Shown here: positions 59,259-60,533 of the stretch, in pieces
How the letters are laid out: each line of letters opens with the position of its first letter
Numbering within the stretch: position 1 is the stretch's first letter
Origin: Anaeromyces robustus
Lineage: Eukaryota > Neocallimastigomycota > Neocallimastigomycetes > Neocallimastigales > Neocallimastigaceae
NCBI GenBank assembly: GCA_002104895.1
Contig: MCFG01000020.1
Coordinates: forward strand, 81,001-145,000
Direction: 5' to 3'
Length of the DNA: 64,000 bases
The notes under the pieces: generated by a model
Database searches by the model: none
What the model was told of the DNA's origin: nothing
What the model saw: the letters and a program-made list of their open reading frames with translations, nothing else
Position numbers and translations under genes: made by a program

Positions 59259-59263
59259 ATAAT

Positions 59264-59448
59264 TATTAACAGTCAGTTAATTGGGTTTAATATTATGTCA
59301 ACTTTATTAATATATTTTTATGATAAAGAGTTACAAATATTTAAATTATGTAAATTACATGCTTTTATATTCATACAATGTGGCTCATACATTATATTTA
59401 ATACAATACATTTTAATACATTTAACACATATTTCACATATTCTAACA
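59264..59448 (-). repeat. 3' LTR (element orientation)
   Basis: 185 bp, identical base for base to 60344-60528. TATA box at about 59363-59370, AATAAA signal at 59303-59308 (both minus strand). Confidence 0.93.
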
Positions 59449-59462
59449 CTCCCCCCTAAACC
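59449..59462 (-). other. Polypurine tract next to the 3' LTR
   Basis: Minus-strand GGTTTAGGGGGGAG runs directly into the LTR start TGTTAG. A PPT in this place primes plus-strand DNA synthesis in LTR elements and fixes the element's orientation. Confidence 0.85.
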
Positions 59463-59776
59463 TAATTATTCTGTAAGAGATAATTTGGTTTACTGGTGAA
59501 TATGTGTACTAAATACTATTTTATATTCTATACTAATATTTTATATACTATAAATCTATTTTCATTAATTGTAATTATATACACTTATGTATATACTAGC
59601 TTAATTTATTTTAATAAACTATATTATTACCCTATGATATTTTTGTGGCGAAATATCCTAAAACCATATTTATTTATGGGTAAATAAACTATATTTAAAT
59701 TATTTATGGATTGGTTACTTATTTGTACCATCCTATACTATATTTTGGCAACCTCATTGGGATTCACACCTTAAAA

Positions 59777-59855
59777 TCTTGACAACTCATGGTTTACCTC
59801 TTTGGTTTTACGTACTCTTGACAACTCATGGATTAACTCTCTGGTTTTTACGTCC
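59777..59855. repeat. Direct repeat (2 x ~39 bp) inside the LTR element
   Basis: TCTTGACAACTCATGG.. recurs immediately as a second copy (59777-59815 and 59816-59855) with about five differences. It is non-coding and of unknown function. Confidence 0.85.
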
Positions 59856-60328
59856 TAACATATTTAATTTTAAATTTTATTATTTTTGTAGAAAAATAAC
59901 CTTTATATATATAAAAATAGCCTTTAATATTCAAAAGTTATATTTATTTATCAATTAATGATTTAATTTCCTATTTATTAAGAGTCTCAAATTTATTTGT
60001 TTACACGTGTTTCTTCCAAACCTTTTACGCGTAATTTAAACCTTATATTCTTAACTATTTTATTTTAGTATTATACTTTTATTTAGTTTCTTTAGGGGGT
60101 TTTATTTTATAATAATATTAAATATTTGACGCGATTTTCCATTTTTAAAATTTTAGATCACTCATCTTCAATGTAGATCAAGATTAATTTTCTATAAAGC
60201 TAACATAATGGCAACTCATCATAATTTAAATTTTACAATAACCACAATACTTAGATCATTTCCATGTTGACATAATATTCTTTGTCCGGCACGAAATTCT
60301 ATCTTCAAAGAATCTCTTTTTAGAGTCG

Positions 60329-60343
60329 ATGAGACTCTTAATC
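60329..60343 (-). other. Candidate primer-binding site for a tRNA-Lys(CUU) fragment
   Basis: The plus strand here reads ATGAGACTCTTAATC, the sequence of the tRNA-Lys(CUU) anticodon arm (about nucleotides 26-40, anticodon CTT in the middle). The element's RNA, from the minus strand, is therefore complementary to it, with the primer 3' end abutting the LTR. Copia and Ty5 use half-tRNA primers annealing at the anticodon region in the same geometry. The tRNA sequence is recalled, not searched. Confidence 0.7.
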
Positions 60344-60528
60344 TATTAACAGTCAGTTAATTGGGTTTAATATTATGTCAACTTTATTAATATATTTTTA
60401 TGATAAAGAGTTACAAATATTTAAATTATGTAAATTACATGCTTTTATATTCATACAATGTGGCTCATACATTATATTTAATACAATACATTTTAATACA
60501 TTTAACACATATTTCACATATTCTAACA
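60344..60528 (-). repeat. 5' LTR (element orientation)
   Basis: 185 bp, identical to 59264-59448. TATA box at about 60443-60450 and AATAAA at 60383-60388 on the minus strand, so transcription would run toward lower coordinates. Confidence 0.93.
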
Positions 60529-60533
60529 ATAAT

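Follow-up and report, generated by a model that had tools for sequence, protein, structure and literature searches.

Results

A short LTR element in the window

The window analysed here is a 64-kb stretch of DNA (G000:C113:81001-145000) from a 70-Mb genome of 769 contigs. It carries, on the minus strand at 59264-60528, an element of 1265 bp whose long terminal repeats (LTRs) read TGTTAG...TTAATA in the element sense (Table 1). The LTR at 60344-60528 is the 5' copy, because the element lies on the minus strand. The features of a Ty1/copia LTR element are present, namely LTRs, a primer-binding site (PBS), a putative polypurine tract (PPT) and a 5-bp target-site duplication (TSD), and G-rich tracts resembling this PPT adjoin the 3' LTRs of most of the autonomous elements described below. 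Given the length of its longest frame, the element is taken to be non-autonomous and, since it has no coding domains, its affiliation to Ty1/copia rests on the shared LTR and PBS.

Table 1. Features of the LTR element in the window (positions count from the first base of the window)
Feature	Position	Strand	Remarks
5' LTR	60344..60528	-	185 bp
3' LTR	59264..59448	-	185 bp; 185/185 identity with 5' LTR
Target-site duplication ATAAT, left	59259..59263	.	
Target-site duplication ATAAT, right	60529..60533	.	
Internal region	59449..60343	-	895 bp; longest stop-to-stop frame 98 codons
Putative polypurine tract, AGGGGGGAG in element sense	59449..59457	-	abuts 3' LTR
PBS	60330..60343	-	element RNA GATTAAGAGTCTCA, complementary to tRNA-Lys(CUU) nucleotides 27-40
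Fifteenth base of the match first proposed	60329	-	plus-strand A, host tRNA G26; outside the Watson-Crick match
Internal 13-nt tRNA-sense copy TGAGACTCTTAAT	59977..59989	-	complementary to the element's own PBS

A genome search with the right end of the element gave 42 matches, of which the best 12 (L001-L012) were surveyed as a family. Full-length copies of 1226-1322 bp lie at 10 of the 12 loci, the window's own copy included; all ten have a 5-bp TSD, their LTRs are 99.5-100% identical, and the family looks young. L012 is a decayed copy (555 bp, LTR identity 87%) and L011 contained neither of the PBS forms sought. TRIM elements are defined by two LTRs, a PBS, a PPT, no coding capacity and a length under 1000 bp (PMC10886601, excerpt); the family is non-coding, but its ten full-length copies are all longer than this. 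Many of the copies at L001-L010 are inserted, judging by their flanking sequence, in ATT/TTA-like repeats; this may be due to a preference for such targets or just to how common these repeats are. The internal 13-mer is intact in all ten full-length copies, and its immediate neighbours differ by small indels.

The PBS matches the anticodon arm of the host tRNA-Lys(CUU)

A reading of the window made from its sequence only had proposed that the 15 bases beside the 5' LTR are those of the tRNA-Lys(CUU) anticodon arm. Positions 60329-60343 read ATGAGACTCTTAATC and stand flush against the LTR at 60344-60528. The exact full arm, TGAGACTCTTAATCTCA, is found at two places in the genome, both of them tRNA-Lys(CUU) genes by ARAGORN and each adjoining a tRNA-Ile(AAU) gene. 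Both genes read ...GAGCG-TGAGACTCTTAATC-TCAAGG, in which TGAGACTCTTAATC represents nucleotides 27-40 numbered from the tRNA 5' end. Since 60329 is A where the host tRNA has G26, the exact match is one of 14 nt, pairing 60330-60343 with tRNA 27-40. The proposal was therefore right in placing the match beside the 5' LTR and for 14 of its bases, and wrong for the fifteenth; comparison with the genome's own tRNA-Lys(CUU), which had been set beforehand as one of two refuting tests, agreed at 14 of the 15 positions. Within the window, the 14-mer with up to two mismatches has two sites (one exact) against 0.23 expected, and two or more sites arose in 2 of 100 shuffles.

An inverted repeat (AGAGTC/GACTCT, 60322-60338) overlaps the PBS, and in a number of unrelated families some inverted repeat pairs with part of the PBS. 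Clusters of many nearly identical tRNA genes (L036-L065, on C219, C378, C151, C181 and others) were among the highest-scoring tRNA matches in the genome, and ARAGORN made 41 tRNA-Arg(UCU) calls across the fetched loci, which overlap one another. Elsewhere in the genome, PF02013 (CBM_10), the fungal dockerin domain of Neocallimastigomycota, matched at 150 of 150 scored places out of 683 candidates. Taken with the AT-richness of the genome, this makes an anaerobic gut fungus the probable host.

The 14-mer recurs beside many kinds of LTR

With at most one mismatch, ATGAGACTCTTAATC has 117 sites in the genome, whereas its reversed pattern has 3. Exact copies of the 14-mer number 110, 52 of them after an A and 58 after another base, and the reversed-pattern control for the latter gave 0 sites. 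At two mismatches the contrast is weaker (355 sites against 194) and the loose matches are mostly background; the counts were therefore restricted to exact sites, and the flanks of all 110 were examined. Two are the tRNA-Lys(CUU) genes and the other 108 lie elsewhere. The 110 places comprise 91 distinct sequences, which fall by LTR-side flank into 28 clusters: 2 tRNA genes, 2 truncated known LTRs (L033, L148), L157, and 23 remaining. No LTR-like sequence adjoins L157, which is among the 108 sites and may be a chance match. About 23 kinds of LTR-side flank bear the exact 14-mer, as counted by a crude clustering that lumped C13 with C179 and L182 with C230. Sixteen of these kinds occur at two or more places and seven at one; paired LTRs prove 11 of the 23, and the LTRs adjoining the seven single-place kinds are putative. 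The second refuting test, a lack of the match beside the LTRs of related elements, also came out in favour of the sequence-only reading, since related and unrelated elements alike have the same PBS there.

The bases on either side of the exact sites vary among flanks, while the 14 bases are constant. In the 89 non-tRNA sequences, the base at tRNA position 26 is A in 41, T in 41, C in 5 and G in 2, and that at position 41 is T in 86, A in 2 and G in 1; the predominance of T at 41 may stem from the terminal A of most of these LTRs and not from the tRNA. The conserved block equals tRNA 27-40 and is bounded at both ends.

Breadth among Ty1/copia elements

The RVT_2 profile has 103 matches in the genome, and the best 51 of these (197.8 bits or more) were taken as the strong set. 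A correctly oriented 14-mer lies 2-7 kb upstream of 25 of these 51, and is found for 19 of the 25 strong matches whose open frames span 1000 aa or more; the exact site is missing at the expected place in 26/51 and 6/25, respectively. Long frames without it there include those on C22, C255, C601 and C767. The nearest 14-mer to C88 is 11.8 kb away, and C364, which looks 5'-truncated, has none within the 2.3 kb read. At the guessed 5' ends of site-less loci (15 stretches, one masked), which may miss the true ends and of which one further place fell beyond its contig, the only near match was on C178; this site has one mismatch, in a stretch 99% identical to a PBS-bearing element.

The C-terminal RNase H pieces of the elements form two groups, all sharing the same PBS. 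Identities between families are 56-67% in the first group (C41, C56, C345/C535, C203/C193), to whose other families C94 is 47-63% identical, and 59-86% in the second (C229, C230, C277, C175, C13); between the groups they fall to 40-46%, or 29-34% for C94. Being shorter than 120 aa, the C388 and C294 pieces were dropped from this comparison; C79 and C179, whose pieces probably do not represent homologous stretches, were left out of the group identities. A search for relatives in viral contigs gave 27 stretches that matched a pattern, none of them confirmed, and a search of solved structures gave no match.

LTR edges and the probable primer 3' end

Both ends were fetched for 16 autonomous elements. 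In each of them, the final 18-25 bases of the 5' LTR are repeated at the 3' end of the element, and LTR identity at the 3' end breaks exactly where the PBS of the 5' copy starts. The LTR ends in A in 15 of the 16, the exception being C13, where the last base is T. With LTRs called automatically, 11/16 had an exact 5-bp TSD; for C535 and C41 one appears by eye if the LTR start is shifted by two bases or one, respectively, to TG, and neither calling nor inspection established one for C388, C203 or C193.

Since the LTR ends exactly at the edge of the PBS, the first copied base should lie opposite tRNA nucleotide 41 and the primer 3' end should be C40, an assignment that presumes no leftover ribonucleotide and no trimming of the ends. 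Because the 3' LTR ends where the site begins in 16/16 elements, we infer as primer a 40-nt 5' half produced from tRNA-Lys(CUU) by a cut between nucleotides 40 and 41. In C13 the LTR-terminal base and U41 do not pair, consistent with a primer whose last nucleotide is C40. The earlier remark that the match ends near tRNA nucleotide 40 agrees with this geometry in every element of the set. Like the PBS of Hemivirus-type elements, the site adjoins the 5' LTR directly and is complementary to an anticodon arm, and the Hemivirus primer 3' end is reported to be nucleotide 40 (PMC1181622, excerpt).

An autonomous relative and recombinants

A composite locus, L031 (C257:120200-128100), reads on the plus strand as LTR-A, window-type interior, PBS, LTR-B, gag-pol frame, PBS, LTR-A. 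The window-type interior is 98.7% identical to that of the window element over 895 bp. The gag-pol frame is of 1754 aa on the minus strand, and its three scanned pieces matched Retrotran_gag_2 and Pol_BBD; rve and SH3_retrovirus; and RVT_2 (198.9 bits), the rve match (28 bits) being below the cut-off of 32.6. This autonomous relative has gag, integrase and reverse transcriptase in the copia order, with the integrase upstream of an RVT_2-type reverse transcriptase. A frame of equal length is found on C229, with LTR-B at both ends and a TSD, and PBS-to-LTR joins like those of L031 occur on C337 and C60 (the latter truncated).

In L031 the switches between families fall exactly at the PBS. Such swaps at the PBS suggest that the two families may be packaged together. 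The window element is presumably mobilised in trans by autonomous Copia elements with the same PBS, and the family of the 1754-aa frame is a candidate mobiliser because the recombinants join its parts with the LTR of the window element.

Discussion

The 14 bases beside the 5' LTR are very probably the minus-strand PBS of a small non-autonomous Ty1/copia-type LTR element, and we hold the explanation as a whole, half-tRNA priming included, with high confidence. Three other explanations were weighed. The element might prime itself, in a manner loosely resembling that of Tf1, which uses its own 5' end: the internal tRNA-like copy at 59977-59989 would pair with the PBS, and a cut would give it a 3' end. 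The element RNA carries this 13-mer some 340 nt 3' of the PBS; together with the A that follows, the 13-mer was found at 20 of the 30 loci from L001 to L030, including all ten full-length copies but not the decayed L012. However, it ends in A where C40 is needed, leaving the terminal pair mismatched, and L031 has the full 14-mer at its two PBSs only; we regard self-priming as very unlikely.

It is just as improbable that the 14-mer is kept for some other reason, such as folding into a hairpin or acting, at the edge of the LTR, as a signal for integrase or packaging, with the likeness to tRNA-Lys secondary. Pairing between the PBS and the bases that follow it is indeed favoured (energy summed across 25 flanks, p ~5e-5, with shuffles that preserve base composition only and flanks that are partly dependent, four being from cluster 0 and one the doubtful L157). 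The conserved block, however, coincides with tRNA 27-40 and extends no further on either side, and families differ in the hairpin partner, which is absent from several flanks. Moreover, the window PBS in its U5 context folds no better than dinucleotide shuffles (z -0.65), and we therefore treat a local PBS hairpin as a lead, not a claim. The least credible alternative is priming by an uncleaved tRNA-Lys paired past base 27, or by another tRNA: the 22 bases beyond the PBS somewhat resemble tRNA 1-26 (local alignment score above composition-only shuffles, p 1e-4; duplex energy, p 0.003), but the hairpin motif confounds this D-arm alignment signal, and an uncleaved tRNA has no 3' end at 40/41, opposite which the LTR edge lies.

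Pairing extended into the tRNA D-arm is not claimed here, the motif being common to the hairpin. Priming by the initiator-Met arm was also rejected: the pattern GGGCTCATAACC has 17 sites, none of them on a contig with an RVT_2 match. Fourteen of the 17 are on G000:C219 and C476, where they are probably tRNA gene clusters.

Priming by a half-molecule of tRNA-Lys(CUU) could proceed as follows. Inside the particle, the tRNA would be cut within the anticodon stem between nucleotides 40 and 41, and the resulting 40-nt 5' half would anneal to the PBS via its 3' 14 nt and be extended into U5. During plus-strand strong-stop synthesis, reverse transcriptase would copy the tRNA back to base 27, which would renew the PBS in each cycle and, in this reading, explain its invariance. 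A modified G26 may stop the enzyme and so set the 14-nt length of the PBS; this would explain why the conserved block ends at 27, just before G26. m2,2G is common at tRNA position 26, and the PBS of HIV-1 is 18 nt long. On the tRNA of HIV-1 it is a modified base, m1A58, that halts plus-strand synthesis and sets the PBS length (PMC13191261, excerpt). The same review also reports a stop at ms2t6A37, and a modified A37 would therefore need to be read through here. We put forward only tentatively, as a possibility less likely than not, that most Copia elements of this fungal lineage, deep branches included, rely on this one elongator tRNA half, with a 14-nt PBS determined by a stop at modified G26 and rewritten each cycle.

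Both the half-tRNA kind of priming and the tRNA are already known; what is new is the host, the breadth within one genome and the exact edges. Hemiviruses are distinguished by their use of a short tRNA segment (ICTV; PMC8515867). As in copia and Ty5, which have been named as known anticodon-loop cases (PMC10886601, excerpt), the primer 3' end would lie inside the anticodon arm with a complementary PBS (PMC8515867; PMC1181622 and PMC5371799, excerpts); those elements use initiator tRNA-Met, in contrast to tRNA-Lys(CUU) here. The plant Ty1/copia lineages Bianca, Osser, Bryco and Gymco-II are also reported to use half-molecule primers, of tRNA-Ile or tRNA-Met (PMC6317226, excerpt), and GalEa an acceptor-end tRNA-Met primer (PMC3587641, excerpt). 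The excerpts of PMC2194720 and PMC7175516 yielded nothing on the primer of Tca2, and the main text of a gut-fungus paper (PMC6875170) has neither 'PBS' nor 'primer binding'. The fungal Helenus elements resemble the window family in being short, non-autonomous LTR elements with a 5-bp TSD and an anticodon-loop PBS common to autonomous Copia elements (PMC10886601, excerpt). Helenus and its Copia partners, however, use tRNA-Tyr, Ile, Asp/Asn and iMet, unlike the tRNA-Lys(CUU) found here, and Helenus LTRs hold tRNA-like sequence (same excerpt), whereas ARAGORN found no tRNA in the 64-kb window.

A close precedent is FunCo1, a group of Copia elements of Pezizomycotina for which tRNA-Lys has been reported as primer (PMC5445492, excerpt). 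The PBS of FunCo1, ATTAAGAGTCT, is contained in GATTAAGAGTCTCA, a likeness in PBS sequence. The idea of a lysine-tRNA half as a variant primer is supported by our results, yet it is less novel than first thought, since a role of tRNA-Lys was already reported for FunCo1 (PMC5445492, excerpt). That report, in the one sentence of the excerpt that concerns it, comes almost entirely from one ascomycete subphylum. Here, by contrast, the host is another fungal-like organism, about 23 flank kinds and two RNase H groups are involved, and the LTR ends fix the 40/41 junction.

What was one sentence on ascomycetes thus becomes a pattern seen across a whole genome, with exact edges and an exactly specified predicted primer, which makes it possible to test where the half-tRNA comes from and why the PBS is 14 nt long. 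Unless it has arisen twice or moved horizontally, priming by the tRNA-Lys anticodon arm would seem to have an older origin or a wider spread among fungi than a single ascomycete clade.
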